DNA of 64,000 nt from Rhizophagus irregularis. Taxonomy: Eukaryota; Glomeromycota; Glomeromycetes; Glomerales; Glomeraceae. Positions 8,404 to 19,866 of this stretch are shown here, one piece after another (the stretch's first letter is position 1; each line of letters opens with the position of its first letter). The position numbers and the translations under genes are program-made. Location: contig NC_089433.1 of NCBI RefSeq assembly GCF_026210795.1, forward strand, positions 4,427,001 to 4,491,000, given 5' to 3'. The notes beneath the pieces are model-generated. The model was given only the letters and a program-made list of their open reading frames with translations, ran no database searches and was not told the origin of the DNA.

Positions 8404-8604
8404 ACCAGATATTATTCAATCACATATTGAGTCAAATATATGGCATGAACATAAATTTATTATAGAGCCAACGCTTTTTAAACAAGATGATATTTGATTA
8501 AATATTTTTGATTTCAATATGCAAAAATCAATGCAAAATTGTATAGAAAAATATGTTAAAAAAGAAAAATTTAATAAGAACTTAACAATCGAAAGGCTAT
8601 ACGT
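8404..8604 (+). pseudogene. LINE ORF fragment, left of the gypsy insertion
   Basis: One reading frame with a single TGA (8495) runs into the left LTR and continues in frame at 19867, directly after the 4-bp target duplication. Deleting the gypsy element and one copy of ACGT therefore rejoins the frame just before the LINE RNase H domain. This is direct evidence that the gypsy element inserted into a LINE coding region. Confidence 0.75.
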
Positions 8605-9310
8605 TGTAACCTGAGAAATCAGGATAATCACGTGAGCGGATGAAAAGACTGAATGGGACAAGGATAAATAATTAACCGAAGGATAAATAATTAACCGAAG
8701 GATAAATAATTAGCCGAAGGATAAATAATTAACCGATAAAATAATATTTATAGTTTAGTTTAGTTTAGTCACGAGATAGTCATATGATAATACATCTTTA
8801 TTTTCTTATTATTCTTAAATCTTTATTAGTAGAAAAGTTAGAAATGGTAGAAATAGTTTTCTTGAAAATGTATAAATATAGGTAGGATTCGTTAGGAATT
8901 CCGCAGTCAGTTTTGACTCAAATTTAATAAAATAAATATTAATTATTAAAAGTTATCTTGAATATGCTCATTGTACGCTTGAGAATTAATTAATATTATT
9001 ATTAAGTCCAGAAAAGTAAAGAAAAGGGAATTATTCTCGTTTTGTTGTATGAAATATAATAAGAAGTTAGGAGAACTCTCGCAGTTTATAAGAAATGAAG
9101 TGGTAATATTTGAAAGAATAAATATTACAGGAAGCATGATATTTTGGGAATATTATGAATAAGTGGTAGTATTGAGAATAAATACTACGGATAAATGAGA
9201 AAGAAAGCGAGAAGTTAAAAGAAAAATAAAATCTAAACCAAGCAAAGTAACGAGAAATAAAGTTAAATGAGAAAGATGTGTTTATCCACAGGTGGCAGAC
9301 GTGGGTGACA
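8605..9310 (+). repeat. 5' LTR
   Basis: 706 bp, starting TGTAACCTGAG and ending GGGTGACA. Near its start a 19-bp motif (GGATAAATAATTARCCGAA) repeats in tandem, with one more copy than in the 3' LTR. GTTTAGTTTAGTTTAGTCACG follows. Reading frames inside are LTR sequence and not genes. Confidence 0.93.
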
Positions 9311-9335
9311 ATTTGGTGCAATGCTCTCGAGAAAG
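9311..9335 (+). other. Candidate primer-binding site
   Basis: TGGTGCAATGCTCTCGAG begins 4 nt after the 5' LTR. It starts with TGG, so it is complementary to a tRNA 3' end of the form ...GCATTGCACCA, as expected for minus-strand priming. The matching tRNA was not identified. Confidence 0.6.
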
Positions 9336-10775
9336 GAAATGATCAATGAATAAAAGAAATGAAATATGATCATTCTGACTATCTTCATATAGTTAGGTAC
9401 CTACGTGATATTCCTAGAGGATCTGGACTTGAGTATAAAAAGAAAAAAAGTTATTAAGTGTACAATGAGAAATAAAAGAAGTACAAGTAATGAAGGATAA
9501 TCAAAGCATGTGTTGCTTGTGATTAGGAGATTTATCAGGAAATTATGAAGTTTATCATAAGAAATTGAAAGAAGTACATGTTAGTATGAGAAAGAACTAA
9601 CACGAATGAAAGAATAGATATTAAATGATGTATAAGCCTGATAAATAAGAAATAAAAGTTGTTAATAACAAACCTAAAAACTACCATACCTCGATGTGAA
9701 GGTAGAGGAAAGCCTAGTATAGGTTATTGGAAGTAAAAGGAGATAATTCTATAAGAATTATTGGAGTTAAGTTAGTCACGATAATGGACTATAAAAGAAA
9801 ATAAGACCGTATCGAGATTTCACGGTAAGAAAGTAAATCTAACGCAAAAGTTGCGGGTGAACTATAAACCCAAGAGGTTGCGTGGGAACCTTATAAGAAA
9901 AACACTAGTGGTTATGTGGGAACCTTTAAAACACTATAAGATTGTAAGTTGTGGGTTAAGCTGTAATAAACCCTCTAGATTGTAAGTTGCGGGTTAAACT
10001 GTAAGAAACCCCCATTATTATTATTGTACGTTGTGGGTAAAGCGGTGTTAAACCCTCATATTAATTTATTTTTGAAGAAACTTGCTGGTCAAGTAAGAGA
10101 ATAATAGAAAAAATAGTTGTGTCACCAGGGGCGTTTGTCAACAGAAATTTCAGTACATTGATCGCTTAAAAATCTGTGGCTATCCAATTATAATAAGAAA
10201 ATAATGAAAGAAATAAGAGAAAGTATAAGTCACGTGGTGAGGCGCAGTAAAATATATATATAGACCTCCCCAGTCTGAGGAGATTGTGGACTTAGATTAT
10301 TTTTAGAAAAATAAAGTTAGTATATAGACCTCCCCAGAGCTGAGGAGATTACGTAAGAATATTATGTGAGAAGTCATGTGAGTAGTACAAATCACATGAA
10401 AAGTAGGTCATATAAAGCGCAGTAAAGTGACGAAAAGAATAAAATGATGCATACCTTGATGCAGTGGAATAAAAATAAAAATGCGAAAAATTGAAATTTA
10501 AAAGGAAAAAGGGTTGTATTTATAATTTTTGGAGTAACACAGATCATGTGTTAAGAGAAAGAAAATGAAAGAAATGAAAGAAAATATAAGTCACATGATA
10601 GGGCGCAGTAGATGAAATGAAATTAGGAGAAGTATGAGAAGTACATGTAATAAATAAGAAAAATATCGATAAATAAAGAAGTAAAATATTTAAAATAAGT
10701 TATAAAAAGTATGGATTTATATTGTAAAAAGAATAAAAGTGTAATTATATTTTGAAAATAAAATAAAGCATTAAA
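9336..10775 (+). other. Retrotransposon leader with repeated motifs
   Basis: About 1.4 kb without a long frame. GYGGGTTAARCTGTAAGAAACC-type motifs repeat at about 9855-10060. ATATATAGACCTCCCCAG...TGAGGAGATT occurs twice (about 10252 and 10320) and can form CCTCCCCAG/CTGAGGAG hairpins. RGCGCAGTA recurs at about 10225, 10418 and 10603. These could be packaging, dimerisation or translation-control structures; that is inference. Confidence 0.5.
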
Positions 10776-11036
10776 ATGGAGATACCAATATTTTATGGCG
10801 TAATAGGAGAAAATCCAAAAGAATGGACAAATCAAGTAGAAAAATATCTGTCAAAGATAGGAATTAAAGACGATAAAAGAATATTTAAGATTGCGAAGAC
10901 ACATTTGTTAGGAAATGCGCTACAATGGTTTGAAAATGAAGGAATGTGTATTACAGATTGGGATAAGAATGAGATCAAATGGTTGAACTTAAAATTTAGA
11001 ATAATTGATAGATATTCAAGTGACAATAGAAGCTGA
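10776..11036 (+). CDS. Short gag-like ORF (86 aa) in the leader
   Basis: It starts MEIPIFYG and contains a pattern, IPIFYG-(about 8)-EWxxQxEKYLSKIG...AKTHLLGNALQWFE, that parallels the gag matrix/capsid start of the large ORF downstream (IPLFYG...DWIRQFEVAFAAIG...AAHLRGAAAQWY). It ends at a TGA after 86 codons and lacks the remaining gag domain and the zinc knuckle. It looks like a duplicated, truncated gag N-terminal module, or the start of an ancestral gag replaced by the longer version. Expression is unknown. Confidence 0.6.
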   Translation: MEIPIFYGVIGENPKEWTNQVEKYLSKIGIKDDKRIFKIAKTHLLGNALQWFENEGMCITDWDKNEIKWLNLKFRIIDRYSSDNRS

Positions 11037-11505
11037 GTAATTGACTATTAGAAAAGTAAAAAGAAATGAATAATGATAAAGTGAAATAATAATAAATAAG
11101 AAATTTTGAATATTAAGGGACTAAATAAATATACGAAAAGACGTTAGAGAATAAAGGGCGAAATAAAAGGATATCATAAGAAGAATAATAAGTGTAATGA
11201 AATTAAGCGATTAAGATGGAAATACAGGAAATATGTAAATAACGAGAATTTAGGGACAAATAATTGTCCAAAAAGACGTTAAACTAATTAGGATTAATGA
11301 AGAATATCAAGTTATGAGTAATAGAATACTATGTGATAAAAGATATAATAAAGAAATGTAGTAGAAAGTTGTATACACAAGGATATAAAAGAAATAAAGA
11401 TTGAAATAATAAATGAATAATTACTATATGAATAAAAATATAAATAGACGGGAAATATGAAATGAAACCATTTTGCAAGTAAATAGGTAAATAAAATAAA
11501 TCGAG
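11037..11505 (+). other. Spacer between the gag-like ORF and gag
   Basis: Purine/AT-rich sequence full of stops in all forward frames. It may be decayed gag sequence following the short ORF. No feature recognised. Confidence 0.4.
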
Positions 11506-14500
11506 ATGTCTGATGTATACGATGAATTAGAAGAGATTAAAAATAGACACGAAATAGAAAAACATAATGAATCAAGAAAAGAGTATCAAGTAGATCCTTC
11601 ATGCCTAAAATGTTATAGTACTGATGGAATAGAGATAGGAGATTGGTTTAAAAGATTTTGGAAGATTTTCCAAAAGGTAATATTAGAAGCAATGAGTTAT
11701 AACAGAAATACATATGTAAAATTAATGGAATACATAACACTAACAAGAAAGGATGGGGAAGAAAGTTATCCATCTAGTAAGAAGAAAAGAAATAGAGAAT
11801 TTGAGAAAATGAGAAAAGAAGGAGAAAAACTGTTAGATATAGTTGTAAGGTCAATTAGGTATAGAAACAAATCAGATTACAGAAAAATGGGAATTATATC
11901 AGTGATAAAAGTGATCTGTGAACATTACATATTGAGTGAAGATAATGAGTATATATTAGACGATCGAACAGAAGAGAATCTATTGGGAAATAGGGAATTG
12001 TTAACATATAGATATATTATAGAAGATGATGAATTAGATGTGAGATTTGCAAAATTTGAAGAGTGGTTAGAAAAAACAGAATCAATAACCATTAAAAACA
12101 AAGGATATGGTACTATGAGATATTTCAAAGAAATATTGCATCTAGAAGAAAATATAGTAGAAGAAGAAAATAGAGAGAAAGTCAAGAAATTTCAGAAAAG
12201 TATAACATATCAATGGTGGGATGGAAATAAATACCCAAAACCATGGATGAACGATGAGTTAACAGATAAGATAATAGAGAAAATTATTGAAACAAAAGGT
12301 TTTGTTGAAGAACAAAGTGATGTAGGAGAACTAGAAAGTTCAGATGATTTAGGAGAATCAAGTTCAAATGAAGGAGATGAACATATAGAAAGAATATACA
12401 GAAATTATTGGTTAGAAAATGGTTATGAGATTGATATTGAAGAAATAAGACGAATAATAAATTTTAGAGTGGAATATGAAATAATGAAAACTAAAGAATT
12501 TATGAGTTTTTACAAAACTATTGAAGAATTAGATGACAAAGGAATAAGAGAAGAATTAAGAATATGGCATTATATGTATACAATAGAATGTCCGTTATGT
12601 AACAAAATGATACTGAAAAAGGAAGCAGTAAAATACAATAAAGAATTTACAGGAGAAATATGTAAAAATTGTTCTGAGAGAGAGGAGAATGATGTTAGTG
12701 AAGCAGAACTAAGAGTAAAAAGAATACAGAAAATATGCGAAGGAGCAGAAGTTGAAGTAACGGAAGGAGAAATATTACGAATGATAAATATGGGTTATAC
12801 AGATGGAGAAATCTTAAATTGGGAGTTTATAAAGTTATTCCAAGAAAATAAGAATGAATTGGAGGGAGTCATAAAAGAAATATTAGTTAAATATTTAGAA
12901 AAACAAATAGAGACAGAGGAAAACAACGAAGAAGAGGATACAAATGATTCAGAAAAGATTGGAGAAATATTAGATCCAGAAGAATATGAGATTTGGGAAG
13001 AAAATTCTGAAGACTTCGATGAAAATGGAGTCGGAAATAATGATGAAAATATTATAAATACAGAAGGTTTTGGCTTAAGTCAAAATTCAGATTCGAATAA
13101 TTCGTTGAATATTAAGGATTCTGATATTGAAAATTTTGATACAGAAAGTGAACTATCTGATTACAATTTACAGGAGAATATATTGTTGAACATGGCGACT
13201 GAAGCTCAAATGAAAAGAATAGTTGAGAATGCTTTAAGATATCCACCTAATACTTTGGATGCAGCAGTAGGGGCAGGAGCACACTTAGTAGATAGGATTG
13301 AAAATGCAGGAAATGAAGCCAGAGGAATAATTAATATACCATTATTTTATGGAAAAGAAGAAGAAGATGTTAGTGATTGGATTAGACAATTTGAAGTAGC
13401 ATTTGCAGCAATTGGAAAAGCAGCAGGACCTAATGGTGGAAGACAAGCGACATTCGCAGCAGCACATTTAAGAGGAGCAGCAGCACAATGGTATCATGAA
13501 ATGAGAGAAGCGAATGCAGGTCATTTAGTGAATTGGGCGGATGCAGATAATGATAATGATTTGAAACATAGAATTAAAAGAAGATTTACCAGAGAAGATG
13601 TTAGAAGAAGAAAAATGTTAGAATTGAGAAAAACTAAACAAGGAATAAATGAAAATGTCGATGATTATACAAGAAGATTTAGACAAGTATTAAGAGTAGC
13701 GACAAGAGGTCATGCATTAGCTGAAAAATATCAAGTAGATTTTTATATTGAAGGGTTAGAAGCAACAGTAGGATACCAAGTTAGAAGACAGAATCCAGCA
13801 AATTTAAATGATGCAATAAATTTAGCAAGAAGAGAAGAAGAAGCAAGAAATGAATTATTTAGAAAAGCAGGAAATATACCAGATAGAGTTTATCCGGAGA
13901 TTGGAAAAGGATATATTGAAGAACGAAATGTTGGAACAAATGTCAGACATAATAAACCATTAAATGAGAATTATGAAGATGAGCTAGCGGAAAAATTAGA
14001 GAAAATGAGAATTGCCAAATTGGAAAAACAAGTACGAAATATGGAAAGGGAGTTGAATAATAATGGGAATAGAAACCAATTGAATCAGAGAAGAAATAAT
14101 GGAGCACCGATTAATTATGATGAAATAACTTGTTTTAGGTGTAATAGAAGAGGTCATTTTGCGACTAGATGTCCATTAGGAAATAATATCAGAAGAAACG
14201 AGAGAAGAGTTAATTTAATAGATATAGAAGACCGTGAAGAAGATTATGACTACGAAGATGAAGAATCAGATGATGATTATGACCATGAAAATAATGAATA
14301 TAATAATTCACAATTGTATAATTACGATCGTGATTTGTATGAAAAAGACAACCCAGTACAAGAAAGAAGAAGAAGTAATAGAATAAATCCTGTACAAGGA
14401 TGGAAAGTCTTTGGAAAACCAGATTTAGATAAAGAAATTGCGGAAAGGGGAAAGGAAGAATATAAATATAGAAATAGAAGAGAAGTTCCAATGGAAGAAG

Positions 14501-14781
14501 ATGTGGGAGATGAACAACCAATGTACGATAGACCAATAGGACCAGATAATACGAATATCCCAAAAAGATATAAATGGAGTAAAAAGAAAGGAGGATATTA
14601 CGACACAATGGAAGGAATAAATAGATGGAAAGAAGCAGGAGGAAAACGCAAACCAAGAGAAGATAAAATTACAGGAGTTAGATCAAAAGATCCAGTAGAT
14701 TATGGAAATCTACTTAATATTGTAGAACAACAAGGAAGAATGATAAAGAAAATGATAAGAAAAGGAGATAAAATGGAGTGA
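11506..14781 (+). CDS. gag: Gag polyprotein with long N-terminal extension
   Basis: 1091 aa. Residues 1-562 are an acidic region of unknown function with a possible zinc ribbon (CPLC at 362-365, CKNC at 386-389). From Met563 a standard gag begins: IPLFYG at about 611, a retrotransposon gag core of about 180 residues (AAHLRGAAAQWY, DDYTRRFRQVLR), then a CX2CX4HX4C zinc knuckle at 876-889 for RNA binding, then an acidic and basic tail. Typical gypsy gags are 300-500 aa, so the N-terminal half is an addition. Met563 could be an internal start giving a gag of normal length. The terminal TGA is followed by CTA and the same frame continues into the protease. Confidence 0.85.
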   Translation: MSDVYDELEEIKNRHEIEKHNESRKEYQVDPSCLKCYSTDGIEIGDWFKRFWKIFQKVILEAMSYNRNTYVKLMEYITLTRKDGEESYPSSKKKRNREFEKMRKEGEKLLDIVVRSIRYRNKSDYRKMGIISVIKVICEHYILSEDNEYILDDRTEENLLGNRELLTYRYIIEDDELDVRFAKFEEWLEKTESITIKNKGYGTMRYFKEILHLEENIVEEENREKVKKFQKSITYQWWDGNKYPKPWMNDELTDKIIEKIIETKGFVEEQSDVGELESSDDLGESSSNEGDEHIERIYRNYWLENGYEIDIEEIRRIINFRVEYEIMKTKEFMSFYKTIEELDDKGIREELRIWHYMYTIECPLCNKMILKKEAVKYNKEFTGEICKNCSEREENDVSEAELRVKRIQKICEGAEVEVTEGEILRMINMGYTDGEILNWEFIKLFQENKNELEGVIKEILVKYLEKQIETEENNEEEDTNDSEKIGEILDPEEYEIWEENSEDFDENGVGNNDENIINTEGFGLSQNSDSNNSLNIKDSDIENFDTESELSDYNLQENILLNMATEAQMKRIVENALRYPPNTLDAAVGAGAHLVDRIENAGNEARGIINIPLFYGKEEEDVSDWIRQFEVAFAAIGKAAGPNGGRQATFAAAHLRGAAAQWYHEMREANAGHLVNWADADNDNDLKHRIKRRFTREDVRRRKMLELRKTKQGINENVDDYTRRFRQVLRVATRGHALAEKYQVDFYIEGLEATVGYQVRRQNPANLNDAINLARREEEARNELFRKAGNIPDRVYPEIGKGYIEERNVGTNVRHNKPLNENYEDELAEKLEKMRIAKLEKQVRNMERELNNNGNRNQLNQRRNNGAPINYDEITCFRCNRRGHFATRCPLGNNIRRNERRVNLIDIEDREEDYDYEDEESDDDYDHENNEYNNSQLYNYDRDLYEKDNPVQERRRSNRINPVQGWKVFGKPDLDKEIAERGKEEYKYRNRREVPMEEDVGDEQPMYDRPIGPDNTNIPKRYKWSKKKGGYYDTMEGINRWKEAGGKRKPREDKITGVRSKDPVDYGNLLNIVEQQGRMIKKMIRKGDKME

Positions 14782-14784
14782 CTA
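14779..14784 (+). promoter_or_regulatory. Stop codon in readthrough context between gag and protease
   Basis: The gag frame ends ATG GAG TGA CTA CAC, and the protease frame is the same frame (14839 minus 14779 is 60). UGA followed by CUA is an established stop-codon readthrough context in eukaryotes and their viruses. There are no other stops between gag and protease, so a Gag-Pro fusion by readthrough is plausible. Confidence 0.55.
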
Positions 14785-14838
14785 CACTCGGAGGTAAAAA
14801 AGACCAAAATAATTGGAGAAAAAGAAGTTACAACAGCA

Positions 14839-15420
14839 ATGAAAACACAGTTTATAATAAATAATAAGGAAATCGAAGTTGTAATAGATTCAGGAGCAGC
14901 AATAAGTGTAATAACAGAGAAATTAAGAAAAGAGTTAGATATACCAATAAAAGAAAAAAGTAATATCACATGTACATTAGCAGATGGGGGAAAAATCGCT
15001 TTATTAGGAAAAGTTAATACGGAAGTAGAAGTTTATAAAGAATTAGTGATACCAGTAACATTAGATGTAATAGACTCAAAACAGAGAGAAATGATTATAG
15101 GAAATGACTTATTGGATAAATGGAATGCGAATATTAATTATAAGGAAAAGGTATTAGAGTTAGAAAATGATGAAGAAATAATAGATATACCGGTGTGGTA
15201 TATTAAACAAGTAGAAGAGTCGGAGGAATCTGACTACGAAAGTGAATCAGAAGAATCTGATTATGAACAAGAAGAAGGGAAGAAACTATATACGATGAAA
15301 GAAGTAATGAAAGGAAATAAAGAAGTAATAAGGAAAAACGAGCTCCAGAAGGATAATGAGAGTTCAAGTGAAGAAAGTTCATCTGATGATAGTGAAATAT
15401 CTAGTGAAAATGAGGATTAA
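14839..15420 (+). CDS. pro: Retropepsin-like aspartic protease
   Basis: 193 aa counted from Met at 14839; the frame is open from the gag stop at 14779. The active-site motif VIDSGAA (Asp17-Ser18-Gly19) and the later IIGNDLLDKW segment (hydrophobic-hydrophobic-G, the second psi-loop) mark a retroviral-type aspartic protease that would cleave Gag and Pol. The C-terminal third is acidic and serine-rich with repeated ESDYE/SEES blocks, which is unusual and of unknown role. The frame closes at TAA; several more in-frame stops separate it from the RT ORF, so RT needs its own initiation or a subgenomic message. Confidence 0.85.
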   Translation: MKTQFIINNKEIEVVIDSGAAISVITEKLRKELDIPIKEKSNITCTLADGGKIALLGKVNTEVEVYKELVIPVTLDVIDSKQREMIIGNDLLDKWNANINYKEKVLELENDEEIIDIPVWYIKQVEESEESDYESESEESDYEQEEGKKLYTMKEVMKGNKEVIRKNELQKDNESSSEESSSDDSEISSENED

Positions 15421-15504
15421 ATTATATAAAAGGGATTAAAATTGTTCCAAAATGTAAAATTGTCAGAATAATAATAAGAAATAAAATAATAAATAAATTT
15501 TAAA
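15421..15504 (+). other. Short inter-ORF spacer in the gypsy element
   Basis: 84 nt with at least five stops in the protease/RT frame. No splice or frameshift signal recognised. Confidence 0.4.
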
Positions 15505-17832
15505 ATGATAAGCGAAAATGGTAAAAATGAAAATAAATGGGAAAAATTCGATAAAAAGATAAATTTGGGAGAAGTAACAGGTAAAAGAAAAGATGATATA
15601 ATAAAGATAATTAAAAGTTACGAAGAAATATTTGAATATGATGAAGAAAAATTGGGAAAAGTGAATACCGTTAAACATAAAATTGAAATTAAGGAAGGTC
15701 AAGAACCGATAGCACAGAAAAGATATAAGGAGACTGAAGAAAAAGGAAAGTTTATAAAGAAAGAAATTGAACAGTTATTAAAAATGGGAAAAATTAGAAA
15801 ATCATGGAGTTCATGGGCGTCTCCAGTAACACTAGCAGGAAAGAAAACAGGAAATTATAGATTTTGCATTGACTATAGAAAATTAAATAATGTAACTAAA
15901 TCGGATGTATACCCATTACCAAGAATAGACGAATTATTAGAAAAATATAGAACGGTGAGATGGTTTACGAGTTTGGATCTAGCGGCAGGGTATCATCAAG
16001 TAGAAATGGTAGAAGAAGATAAAGAAAAGACAGCATTTATATGTTTACAAGGATTATATGAATATAATGTCATGCCATTCGGTTTAAAGAATGCACCAGG
16101 AACATTTCAGAGGTTAATGGACGAAATATTAAAAGAATATATTGGAGAATTTGTAATAGTATATTTAGATGATATAATGATTTATTCGAAAAATTTCGAA
16201 GAACATGAGGAACATATTGATAAAGTGCTGAATAAATTAAAGGAAAACAATCTGATTGTGAAATTGAAGAAATGTAAGTTTGGTGAACGAAATATAGAAT
16301 TTTTAGGACATATAGTTGGGAGAGATGGTTTAAAACCAGATGTGAAGAAAGTGGAGAAGATTAAAGAAATAAAGATACCAGAAACTGTTACACAAGTAAG
16401 ATCATTTTTAGGATTGTGTTCGTATTATAGAAGATTTATAAAGAATTTTGCGAAAATAGCAAAGCCTTTATATCACTTAGTAAAGAAAGATGTACCATTT
16501 GAATGGACAGAGAAACAGCAAGAAGCATTTGAAGAATTAAAAATAAGATTAATGGAGAAACCAGTATTAGATCACCCTAATTTTGAAAAGGAATTTATAT
16601 TGATTACAGACGCATCAGGAGAAGGGTTAGGAGCAGTGTTATCTCAGAAAAACGAGGAGAATAAAGAATTTGTTATCGCTTACGCTAGTAGAAGTTTAGT
16701 GGGAGCAGAAAAGAATTATGCAATAACAGAATTAGAATGTTTAGCAATATTCTGGGGGATCAAGTATTTCCATAAGTTCTTAGCAGGAAGAAAGTTTACA
16801 GTTATAACAGATCATGCTGCATTAAAAGGATTAATGAATGCTAAAGTACCTACAGGAAGAAGAGCAAGATGGGTAATGGAGTTACAACAGTATGATTTCG
16901 AAGTAATACATAGAAGTGGTAAAGAAAATAAGAATGCAGATGCGTTATCAAGACTAGAATTTGAGGAGAAAGTTATAAAAAGGGACCCTGGAGGCTCAAG
17001 TCAAGAAATAATGAAAATGGAACATAATAAAGAGAAAAAGCTGAGATATGTTAGATCAGGAAATGAATGGTTCGACGCTAGAAGATTTAAGGGAAAATGG
17101 GATGATATGAAATATTTTAATGATAAAGAAGCGATATTACTGAACTTAGAAGAAAAGACAGAAAAAGAATTATTAAAGAAATTAGAAAGGAAGAGTAAAC
17201 CACAGATTATTATTGTTGATGGGGTTGATGGTATAGGGAAATCCACCATAGTAGAAAATATAATTAAACGATTAAAAGAAAAGGATGATTTAAAAATAAT
17301 ATTTAATAAGTTTAAAAGAAGAAGAAATGATGATAAGAGATTTGAGGAACCTTCAAAAGAATATGAATGGTTATTCAGAAAACAAGTTGTAGAAGAAATC
17401 AATAGGAGAATAGTTGAATTTACAGATGAAGACATTATAATACTGGATAAGTCACCATATTGTGAATACTTTTATCAAAAGACCAAAAGTTTTGACAGAG
17501 GATATATTACTCCATATGGGAACCATAAAATGGAAAAGGAGATATTTAAATATAAAGATATTATAGATAATGCGATAATAATTTTCTTAGAGAATAAAGA
17601 ATGTTGGAATAATTATATTGAAAGAGAAACTAAGAAAAGTAATGAAGGACATAAAACATCATATGAAACATTGAACGAAGAGGAATATATGGACATGGTG
17701 AAAATGTTTAAAGAGCATCAGAATATTTATGAGAATAAGGGGAAATATAAGAGAATTAAGATTAAAAACGATGATAAAAGTTGGAAAAAAGTATATAAAC
17801 AAGTAAAAAAAATTATTGGAAAAATAAAATGA
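15505..17832 (+). CDS. pol: Pol: reverse transcriptase-RNase H fused to a TMPK/dNK-like kinase
   Basis: 775 aa. RT spans about 75-270 with FCIDYRKLN, SLDLAAGYHQV, MPFGLKNAPGTFQ and the catalytic YLDD. RNase H spans about 365-490, with DASGEGLGAVL, ELECLAI and TDHAAL, ending in the usual ADALSR. Instead of stopping or entering integrase, the frame runs on for about 280 residues. The segment at about 565-770 holds a Walker A/P-loop VDGVDGIGKST (Gly573-Thr581), a DKSPY motif (Asp648-Tyr652) at the DR(S/Y) position, and an arginine/lysine-rich lid-like part (NNYIERETKK). This matches the layout of thymidylate and deoxynucleoside kinases. The kinase frame is intact. Function is inference: supply of dNTP precursors for reverse transcription. 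Confidence 0.88.
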   Translation: MISENGKNENKWEKFDKKINLGEVTGKRKDDIIKIIKSYEEIFEYDEEKLGKVNTVKHKIEIKEGQEPIAQKRYKETEEKGKFIKKEIEQLLKMGKIRKSWSSWASPVTLAGKKTGNYRFCIDYRKLNNVTKSDVYPLPRIDELLEKYRTVRWFTSLDLAAGYHQVEMVEEDKEKTAFICLQGLYEYNVMPFGLKNAPGTFQRLMDEILKEYIGEFVIVYLDDIMIYSKNFEEHEEHIDKVLNKLKENNLIVKLKKCKFGERNIEFLGHIVGRDGLKPDVKKVEKIKEIKIPETVTQVRSFLGLCSYYRRFIKNFAKIAKPLYHLVKKDVPFEWTEKQQEAFEELKIRLMEKPVLDHPNFEKEFILITDASGEGLGAVLSQKNEENKEFVIAYASRSLVGAEKNYAITELECLAIFWGIKYFHKFLAGRKFTVITDHAALKGLMNAKVPTGRRARWVMELQQYDFEVIHRSGKENKNADALSRLEFEEKVIKRDPGGSSQEIMKMEHNKEKKLRYVRSGNEWFDARRFKGKWDDMKYFNDKEAILLNLEEKTEKELLKKLERKSKPQIIIVDGVDGIGKSTIVENIIKRLKEKDDLKIIFNKFKRRRNDDKRFEEPSKEYEWLFRKQVVEEINRRIVEFTDEDIIILDKSPYCEYFYQKTKSFDRGYITPYGNHKMEKEIFKYKDIIDNAIIIFLENKECWNNYIERETKKSNEGHKTSYETLNEEEYMDMVKMFKEHQNIYENKGKYKRIKIKNDDKSWKKVYKQVKKIIGKIK

Positions 17833-17981
17833 CTACCGAAAATATTGGAGTAGGAATATATATTTACATTATACACAGGAATACAAATTATCACTGCGTG
17901 TTATTTGAAGATAAAAATATTAGGTTTATTTTACCTTTTGAAGAAGAAATAGAAGATATACTAATTAATGGAAGAAGATAA
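17829..17981 (+). CDS. 50-aa ORF linking pol and integrase
   Basis: The start overlaps the pol stop as ATGA (17829-17832), and the 3' end overlaps the integrase start by 14 nt (ATG at 17968 lies inside it). It would encode a small protein beginning MTTENIGVGIYIYI, hydrophobic at first and acidic at the end, with no recognised domain. The double overlap suggests coupled termination-reinitiation, or that this is the bridge of a -1 frameshift joining pol to integrase. It may not be translated independently. Confidence 0.4.
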   Translation: MTTENIGVGIYIYIIHRNTNYHCVLFEDKNIRFILPFEEEIEDILINGRR

Positions 17982-19150
17982 ATATAATGAGATAATTAAA
18001 AATATAGATAATGAACAACACTATAGGATGAAAGATGGTTTGTTATATAGAATAAAGGATAATAGAGAATTGAGAGTAATAAGAAAATATGAGTTTGAAG
18101 GATTAATGTATATTGCACACGACCATGAATTATCTGGACATTTTGGAATAGATGCAACATATGAAAGGATTAGAGAGAAATATTATTGGAAAGGAATGAA
18201 ACAAGATATAGAAATATATGTTAAATCATGCGATAGTTGTCAAAGGAGAGGGAAACTGATTGGAAAACATGAATTAAATGTAATAAAAGTTAAAGAACCA
18301 TTTTACCAAATTGGAATAGATGTTGTGGGACCGTTACCAATAACAGAAAGAAATAATAGATACATAGTTACGGCAATGGATTATTTTACGAAATGGCCAG
18401 AAGCCAGAGCTTTAGAAACAGCAGGTGCTAAAGAAATTGCAAGATTCATTTATGAAGATATAATATGTAGACATGGATGTCCAAAAAAGATATTAAGTGA
18501 TAGAGGAAGTCATTTCAATAATAAATTAGTAGAACTATTAATGAAGGAATTTCAGATAAAACACAATTTTTCGACACCTTATCACCCAAAGACAAATGGA
18601 TTAATAGAAAGATTCAATAAGACACTATGTGAATCATTAGCAAAATTGAGTAACATTAAAGATTGGGATTTAAAAATACCAGGAGTTTTATTTGCATATA
18701 GAACAAAGAAGAATGATTCGACCAAGTTAAAACCAGGATATCTAATATATGGAAGGGAAATGAAGACATTATTAAATATGGAAGATGAAAATGTTACAAT
18801 AACACAAAGGATTAATAGTTTAATGGAAGATCTACCGAACATTAGAAGCCGAGCCAGAGAAAATATAGAAAAATCTCAAGAAAAACAGAAGAAATATCAT
18901 GATAAGAAATATAAGACGAAAAAGAATTTTCAAATAGGGGATAAAGTACTATAATGCAGCAAAAGAAAAACAATGGTCTGGAAAACTAGAAGAAAAATGG
19001 AAAGGACCGTATTATATACATGAAATAATTTCTAAAGGATCTTATAAAATTAAAACTATGGAGGGAAGAATACAGAAAACGCCAATAAATGGAGAATTAT
19101 TGAAGGAATATATTGACAGGTCAAGTTTTGAAGTTATAGTTAGAATTTGA
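17968..19150 (+). CDS. int: Integrase, frameshifted near the C-terminus
   Basis: The first open frame is 328 aa (to 18954). It has an HHCC zinc finger (H...HFG...C-D-S-C, about residues 48-90) and a DDE core: Asp in GIDVVGPL, Asp in LSDRGSHF, Glu in GLIERFN, spaced as in Ty3/gypsy integrases. A TAA after GDKVL ends it. A neighbouring frame picks up at once and continues to a TGA at 19148-19150 with a WKGPY motif, the GPY/F domain expected at this place. So a 1- or 2-nt indel near 18948-18955 has split the gene, unless bypassed by frameshifting. No chromodomain was recognised. Confidence 0.85.
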
Positions 19151-19164
19151 TGGGACTCAAATTT

Positions 19165-19181
19165 TTCTTGGGGGGGATAGC
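19165..19181 (+). other. Polypurine tract
   Basis: TTGGGGGGGATAGC lies immediately before the 3' LTR, the expected position of the plus-strand primer for reverse transcription. Confidence 0.7.
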
Positions 19182-19866
19182 TGTAACCCGAGAAATCAGG
19201 ATAATCACGTGCGGATGAAAAGACTGAATGGGACAAGGATAAATAATTAACCGAAGGATAAATAATTAGCTGAAGGATAAATAATTAACTGATAAAATAA
19301 TATTTATAGTTTAGTTTAGTTTAGTCACGAGATAGTCATATGATAATACATCTTTATTTTCTTATTGTTCTTAAATCTTTATTAGTAGAAAAGTTAGAAA
19401 TGGTAGAAATAGTTTTCTTGAAAATGTATAAATATAGGTGGGATTCGTTAGGAATTCCGCAGTCAGTTTTGACTCAAATTTAATAAAATAAATATTAATT
19501 ATTAAAAGTTATCTTGAATATGCTCATTGTACGCTTGAGAATTAATTAATATTATTATTAAGTCCAGAAAAGTAAAGAAAAGGGAATTATTCTCGTTTTG
19601 TTGTATGAAATATAATAAGAAGTTAGGAGAACTCTCGCAGTTTATAAGAAATGAAGTGGTAATATTTGAAAGAATAAATATTACAGGAAGCATGATATTT
19701 TGGGAATATTATGAATAAGTGGTAGTATTGAGAATAAATACTACGGATAAATGAGAAAAAAAGCGAGAAGTTAAAAGAAAAATAAAATCTAAACCAAGCA
19801 AAGTAACGAGAAATAAAGTTAAATGAGAAAGATGTGTTTATCCACGGGTGGCAGACGTGGGTGACA
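19182..19866 (+). repeat. 3' LTR
   Basis: 685 bp, starting TGTAACCCGAG and ending GGGTGACA. It is about 99% like the 5' LTR outside one missing 19-bp subrepeat and a 2-nt deletion near the start (GTGCGG versus GTGAGCGG). ACGT follows. Confidence 0.93.

Follow-up and report, generated by a model that had tools for sequence, protein, structure and literature searches.

Enzymes of nucleotide metabolism inside Pol are familiar in the form of dUTPase, which is reported for fungal, rotifer and planarian long terminal repeat (LTR) retrotransposons in three papers (PMC2864245, PMC5408684, PMC6431247) and whose place in Pol varies by family among LTR elements and retroviruses. In this study, a stretch of 64,000 nucleotides from Rhizophagus irregularis (contig NC_089433.1, positions 4,427,001 to 4,491,000, forward strand; hereafter the window) was analysed, and a Ty3/gypsy retrotransposon in it was found to carry a domain of the thymidylate kinase (TMPK)/deoxynucleoside kinase (dNK) superfamily in its pol open reading frame (ORF). 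The dUTPase elements are alike in holding a nucleotide-metabolism enzyme inside Pol; however, dUTPase has another fold and another reaction, the removal of dUTP, whereas the domain of the R. irregularis element has a kinase fold. In a term search, the word 'kinase' was absent from the main text of the three dUTPase papers. The orchid gypsy elements with a captured 2-ODD RNA demethylase (PMC9289625) are comparable in that a gypsy lineage has kept a captured enzyme, but there the enzyme is an additional ORF and here the kinase lies inside the pol ORFs. The main text of the transposable element survey of R. irregularis (PMC11075540) contains 'kinase' once, for an expanded host gene family, and the titles and abstract openings among the listed open-access matches for nucleoside- or nucleotide-type kinase plus retrotransposon named no such domain. 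As far as this literature goes, LTR elements are known to carry an added enzyme of nucleotide metabolism, and the kinase fold with its presumed reaction appears to be new there. We consider it likely that a Ty3/gypsy lineage gained a kinase of the dNK/TMPK superfamily and kept it as a working Pol domain, which would most probably phosphorylate deoxynucleosides or deoxynucleoside monophosphates (dNMPs).

The segment was first proposed in an initial annotation of the window, made from the sequence alone, as a nucleotide-kinase-like domain at 17185..17820. The segment stood, and its ends were adjusted, the domain starting slightly earlier and running to the stop of the pol ORF (Table 1). In close agreement with the 280 or so codons stated there, 291 stop-free codons follow the RNase H end ADALSRL. 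The P-loop was found as described, DKSPY lies 69 residues past the P-loop lysine (about 70 had been claimed), and the Arg/Lys-rich lid-like segment does precede the integrase ORF. Conservation was read from alignment A1, which comprises 17 of the 25 domain rows taken from element loci (numbered L below); the partial or decayed L026, L027 and L028 were excluded from the domain counts. All 17 rows keep G-x-DG-x-GK, FN.[FY]KRR, KSPY, R107, R149, K153 and K159. We take DKSPY to be the counterpart of DR(Y/F/H) in TMPK and (D/E)RS in dNK, and the F-K-R-R-R segment to be a possible counterpart of the phosphate-binding F-x-x-R of TMPK; its phenylalanine aligns with a phenylalanine in the first exon of the host TMPK (by sequence register).

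Compared with the thymidylate kinases (PF02223) of cells, phages and DNA viruses, the element domain has the same fold, the same lid position and the P-loop GxDGxGK[ST], and presumably a common D-x-[SY] strand motif; it differs in staying under the Pfam cut-off, in reading DK for DR and in sharing one ORF with RNase H or integrase. The dNKs (PF01712) have the same fold and, we assume, a common [DE][RK][ST] motif, and the dNK of this genome was the best of the few single-sequence relatives tried and grouped with the element domains in a tree. Unlike a dNK, which is a free enzyme, the element domain belongs to Pol; it has no Pfam dNK match, and it reads DKS for [DE]RS and a basic N..KRRR where E..W belongs.

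Membership of the superfamily was evaluated with profiles. Of the Pfam checks proposed with the annotation, Thymidylate_kin gave a near miss and dNK nothing, while two other profiles matched. PHROG 761, named 'thymidylate kinase', matched 5/5 element domains end to end (E 3.3e-12 to 2e-15). Since it also scored E. coli Tmk (132.1 bits), the genome dNK (64.6) and the phage SP-15 dNK (127.2), this profile represents the TMPK/dNK superfamily and does not point to a single activity. A hidden Markov model (HMM) of 22 viral TMPK-like proteins scored 25/25 element domains, many of them near-copies, at 33-53 bits. Shuffled controls did not exceed 5.1 bits, nor reversed ones 4.2 bits; therefore, the kinase likeness is not due to chance. 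The reference proteins reached 34.5 (SP-15 dNK), 27.4 (genome dNK) and 22.5 bits (E. coli Tmk) with it. Two of 24 viral rows (L073, L075) had been dropped as over-long; no element row entered the HMM, although three were present in the alignment used to collect the viral rows. An HMM of the element domains gave the genome dNK 41.0 bits, and a profile comparison of A1 with this dNK spanned 170 columns; for SP-15 dNK and for E. coli Tmk, the alignment was confined to the P-loop. With A1 as the query, no confirmed relative was found in the viral or genome contigs, and tblastn in phages gave two matches for L009, both partial, and none for L012. The single queries E. coli Tmk, SP-15 dNK and genome dNK found 2, 1 and 0 loci in the viral contigs, and a scan of genome contigs with alignment A3 yielded 16 matches to bacteria and archaea, all of them partial. 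Matches to NB-ARC, AAA_14, STAND and FtsY were set aside as generic because they covered only the N-terminal part, mostly the P-loop stretch; the AAA_14 match reached about residue 100.

The predicted structure has a TMPK fold over the entire domain, from an alignment in which 22 of 23 rows were viral TMPK-like proteins. The best structural matches by VIA-align were TMPK and dCK with tied Z, so the model cannot separate TMPK from dNK by fold. A PDB search with the A5 profile (22/23 viral rows) was led by prophage YorR (2axp) and thymidylate kinases. A single-sequence AlphaFold2 model was not used (pLDDT 49; no PDB match with E up to 0.001). When 10 element rows were placed in a tree with 18 others, the element kinases formed one group (97/93), and a split at 98/94, with very long branches and few reference rows, placed them with two dNKs. 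Furthermore, the genome dNK as a single query returned 89 matches, of which 84 were element kinases of the L012 and L015 kinds (best E 9.9e-10) and 5 were the dNK gene itself and decayed kin on C28. The tree, this search and the serine after D[RK] lean toward dNK, and the Pfam near-misses, the P-loop aspartate and the F-x-x-R-like segment lean toward TMPK.

In the genome (146.7 Mb, 32 contigs), 150 of the 151 matches to the kinase segment were listed (150 of 184 candidates scored), which correspond to about 145 dispersed places after merging of pieces within 3 kb. The matched part was free of stops in 126 of the 150 listed matches; six of the other 24 are the close kin L002-L006 and L008, whose own stop falls two residues before the end of the window copy. 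Copies fell into identity groups of about 89-95, 75-81, 63, 61 and 57%, and these groups keep the core motifs in the 17 rows of A1. As had been suggested, dN/dS was compared across copies. Pairwise Nei-Gojobori omega of the kinase, from pairs that are not independent of one another, several with saturated dS, was 0.07-0.18 in 23 of 25 pairs, which is clear purifying selection; for RT-RNaseH (RT, reverse transcriptase) it was 0.02-0.19 in 14 pairs. A TMPK/dNK-type domain in gypsy pol is thus supported by profile and structural matches and by unbroken, selected copies, and neither outcome named beforehand as contrary to it (no profile or structural match; a segment broken or absent in all related copies) was observed.

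The arrangement of the kinase was read in 25 loci. It stands in one open frame with the RNase H end in 19, and N-terminally in the integrase ORF in five (L018-L022); in L025, a short kinase frame contains neither partner. Across the genome, 124 of the 150 listed RNase H matches have a kinase match within 2.5 kb downstream, and 23 of the 150 listed kinase matches have no listed RNase H upstream. The RT tree did not separate gain from loss of the kinase (52/56). The families are, moreover, mosaic around the domain. In the DNA leading to the P-loop, L010 and L012 are 91-99% identical; identity drops to 61-80% over the kinase and the sequence just after it and is back at 87-99% beyond. L012 and L015 are 81-92% identical in the kinase and 47-82% in the other aligned windows, gapped ones aside. 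This mosaic, with a border at the P-loop, would most simply be read as exchange of a kinase module between families.

Several results weigh against a dNK/TMPK-type enzyme at work in Pol. Pfam Thymidylate_kin reached 18.9-23.0 bits in 6/6 element domains (cut-off 27) and NCBIfam DTMP_kinase 18.6-24.8 bits in 5/5 (cut-off 83.25); no NCBIfam model came near its cut-off in these five, and no Pfam dNK match was among those listed for six element domains at E limits of 1 and 0.1. The element HMM gave at most 21.5 bits to the viral rows, 8.2 to E. coli Tmk and 2.6 to SP-15 dNK. The genome dNK query missed the window copy, five close kin, L009, L010 and five checked kinase-integrase copies, and the window domain alone gave a weak local match to that dNK. 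The TMPK likeness of the structural model is not independent of the viral TMPK-like rows in its alignment, and the model was poor when they were left out. In 17/17 aligned rows, lysine replaces the arginine of the usual DR/ERS motif. This lysine would suit an active kinase of the same fold with another substrate (for example a ribonucleotide or the end of a nucleic acid) or another task (regulation, or targeting linked to integrase), as would the basic FKRRR where dNKs carry an acidic E..W, the fusion to integrase in one family, and the PPK2, adenylate and UMP-CMP kinases among the structural matches. Such a kinase is nevertheless unlikely in our view: TMPK and dCK are the best VIA-align matches, the 98/94 split (on long branches) sets the element kinases and two dNKs apart from the other rows, and both fusion partners act on the DNA of the element or on its synthesis.

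The weight of the selection data was considered in the same way. Kinase omega was 0.28 and 0.35 in two young pairs, on only 7 and 16 changes. Of the 14 pairs that have both values, 11 show a higher omega for the kinase than for RT-RNaseH, so the constraint on the kinase is somewhat weaker. The domain can also be missing. By coordinates only, 26 of the 150 listed RNase H matches have no kinase match within 2.5 kb; three of these (L037, L038, L026) were read. In L037, RT-RNaseH ends in ADAMSRLI with integrase 197 bases on, and in L038 about 120 bases separate RNase H from integrase, leaving no room for a kinase, and such elements can therefore do without it; in L026, the kinase lies in two pieces farther downstream of RNase H. 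The lower constraint, together with DK in place of DR/ERS, would agree with a catalytically dead P-loop domain retained as a structural or binding module, which we judge quite improbable given that the Walker A lysine, K91, R107, R149, K153 and K159 are invariant in 17/17 rows, including families with pairwise dS above 1. The loci without the domain would fit a functionless passenger sequence, or an assembly artefact; we give this very little credence, as the domain occupies about 145 dispersed places in several diverged families, omega is far below 1, a codon pattern at odds with neutral carriage, and the mosaic resembles module transfer between families.

The computed results comprise the presence of the domain, its fold class, the conservation of nucleotide-binding and catalytic-type residues under purifying selection, the fusion to RNase H or integrase ORFs and the exchange-like mosaic; catalysis, substrate, packaging with RT, the benefit to the element and the donor are inferred. 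For the favoured dNK/TMPK-superfamily kinase, the following course is proposed. A gene of the superfamily would have entered a Ty3/gypsy lineage of R. irregularis at a site between RNase H and integrase. Pol would have retained the kinase since, encoded as RT-RNaseH-kinase by most of the families read and as kinase-integrase by another. The domain is predicted to phosphorylate a deoxynucleoside or dNMP near the reverse transcriptase of the element and thereby to yield deoxynucleoside triphosphate (dNTP) precursors on site, a supply for reverse transcription that would fit the findings. A host nucleoside-diphosphate kinase would be needed to complete the path to dNTP. Retroelements are thought to depend on the host dNTP pool, and the only exception known to us in LTR elements is dUTPase, which only cleans this pool. 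In its place, the kinase would parallel the dUTPase known from retroviruses and from some LTR retrotransposons, but it would serve the supply of the pool and not its purity; its benefit would be greatest where nuclei are outside S phase. A comparable argument for viral dUTPase is repeated in PMC2864245.

With less confidence, and only as a possibility, we suggest the fuller version: a precursor kinase packaged through its tie to RT or integrase, making reverse transcription less reliant on the dNTP level of a fungus with many nuclei, mostly outside S phase, its cassette traded between element families by template switching. If this holds, it would be the first retroelement known with a phosphorylating enzyme of DNA-precursor synthesis, and the kinase, fused to RT-RNaseH or to integrase, would be a case of a retroelement that contributes to the dNTP supply. 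It would become testable whether dNTP limitation has shaped retrotransposition in fungi that are coenocytic, with their nuclei in a common cytoplasm, and the families offer natural comparisons in two domain positions, related loci without the domain and a mosaic with a P-loop border. That many Ty3/gypsy elements of this genome carry the conserved domain suggests that they may bring part of their own raw-material supply.

Table 1. Coordinates of the kinase motifs, the retrotransposon of the window and the dNK gene of the genome
Feature	Position	Strand	Remarks
Kinase domain, TMPK/dNK superfamily	17179..17829	+	C-terminal to RNase H, same ORF; TGA stop at 17830
P-loop GVDGIGKST	17221..17247	+	G15-T23 of domain; G15, D17, G18, G20, K21 invariant in 17/17 rows
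F-K-R-R-R segment	17311..17325	+	K46, R47, R48 invariant in 17/17 rows
DKSPY	17446..17460	+	K91, S92, P93, Y94 invariant in 17/17; D90 in 16/17 (N in L025)
Lid-like basic segment R149...K153...K159	17623..17655	+	All three invariant in 17/17 rows
5' LTR	8605..9310	+	TGTAAC...TGACA; putative target duplication ACGT at 8601-8604 just upstream
gag ORF	11506..14781	+	C-terminal part has capsid and CCHC domains; TGA CTA C at the stop
Aspartic protease (PR)	14839..15420	+	Same frame as gag, downstream of TGA
RT and RNase H part of pol ORF	15505..16959	+	Entire pol ORF 15505-17832
Linker between RNase H and kinase	16960..17178	+	Alike in some families, almost missing in L015 and L016
Small overlapping ORF, 50 aa	17829..17981	+	Between kinase and integrase; ATG overlaps kinase stop (ATGA)
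Integrase ORF (H2C2, rve)	17968..18954	+	328 aa in window copy
3' LTR	19182..19866	+	ACGT directly after; G-rich polypurine-like stretch immediately upstream
dNK gene, one open frame	G000 C28:1223987-1224991 = L033 1480-2487	- in L033	PF01712 110.5 bits

The element as a whole spans 8605-19866 as one LTR retrotransposon, with paired LTRs of about 0.7 kb between the two copies of the putative target duplication. The LTRs differ by 7 mismatches and 2 gap openings over 707 columns; since the pair is nearly identical, the window copy looks like a fairly young insertion. Retrotrans_gag, Ty3_capsid, gag-asp_proteas, RVT_1, RT_RNaseH, Integrase_H2C2 and rve all matched above their cut-offs in that order, which is the Ty3/gypsy order gag-PR-RT-RH-IN with Ty3-type gag and PR matches. 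The pol ORF encodes 775 aa, with RVT_1 at residues 113-271 and RNase H at 359-463. Of 13 other loci examined, 12 yielded no LTR pair, because the stretches taken (9.7-9.9 kb) were shorter than the element; in L010, repeats of 212-264 bp stand at either end.

The junctions between the ORFs were also compared. The gag/PR junction reads TGA CTA C in 15 of the 18 loci with a protease match, many of them near-copies; L009 and L024 deviate, and L026 is at an edge. The context is kept although protease identities to the window copy are only 35-47% in the other families. Since UGA CUA is known to favour stop readthrough, gag-PR may be made in this way. Between kinase and integrase, an ORF of 47-50 aa lies in another frame, with the ATGA overlap in the window copy and L009; its protein is alike in the window copy, L002, L006, L007 and L009, and shorter in L008. 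L012 and L014 have a different ORF of 113 aa at this place. In these two loci, the RT-RNaseH-kinase ORF begins in an ATGA that also contains the protease stop, as if translation ended and restarted in a coupled way to give separate pol parts and not one polyprotein. The integrase of the window copy ends at an earlier stop (18952), with 395 aa in L002 and L006-L008. L017 is internally deleted, and its gag frame runs into the RNase H end and kinase in a single open frame of 951 aa.

The dNK gene on C28 is the only PF01712 match found in the genome. It has an N-terminal extension of about 120 residues, and decayed relatives lie about 40 kb off (C28:1181428-1185579). The host TMPK was considered as a putative donor of the element domain; for its first exon, the part compared, the alignment to A1 is limited to the P-loop and beta-2 (39 columns). 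Besides the TMPK gene on C13, a TMPK-like gene was found at L029 1402-2124. Its P-loop reads GCEDTNTT, and the protein is therefore perhaps without normal nucleotide binding; the adjoining ORF is presumably HMG-box-like.
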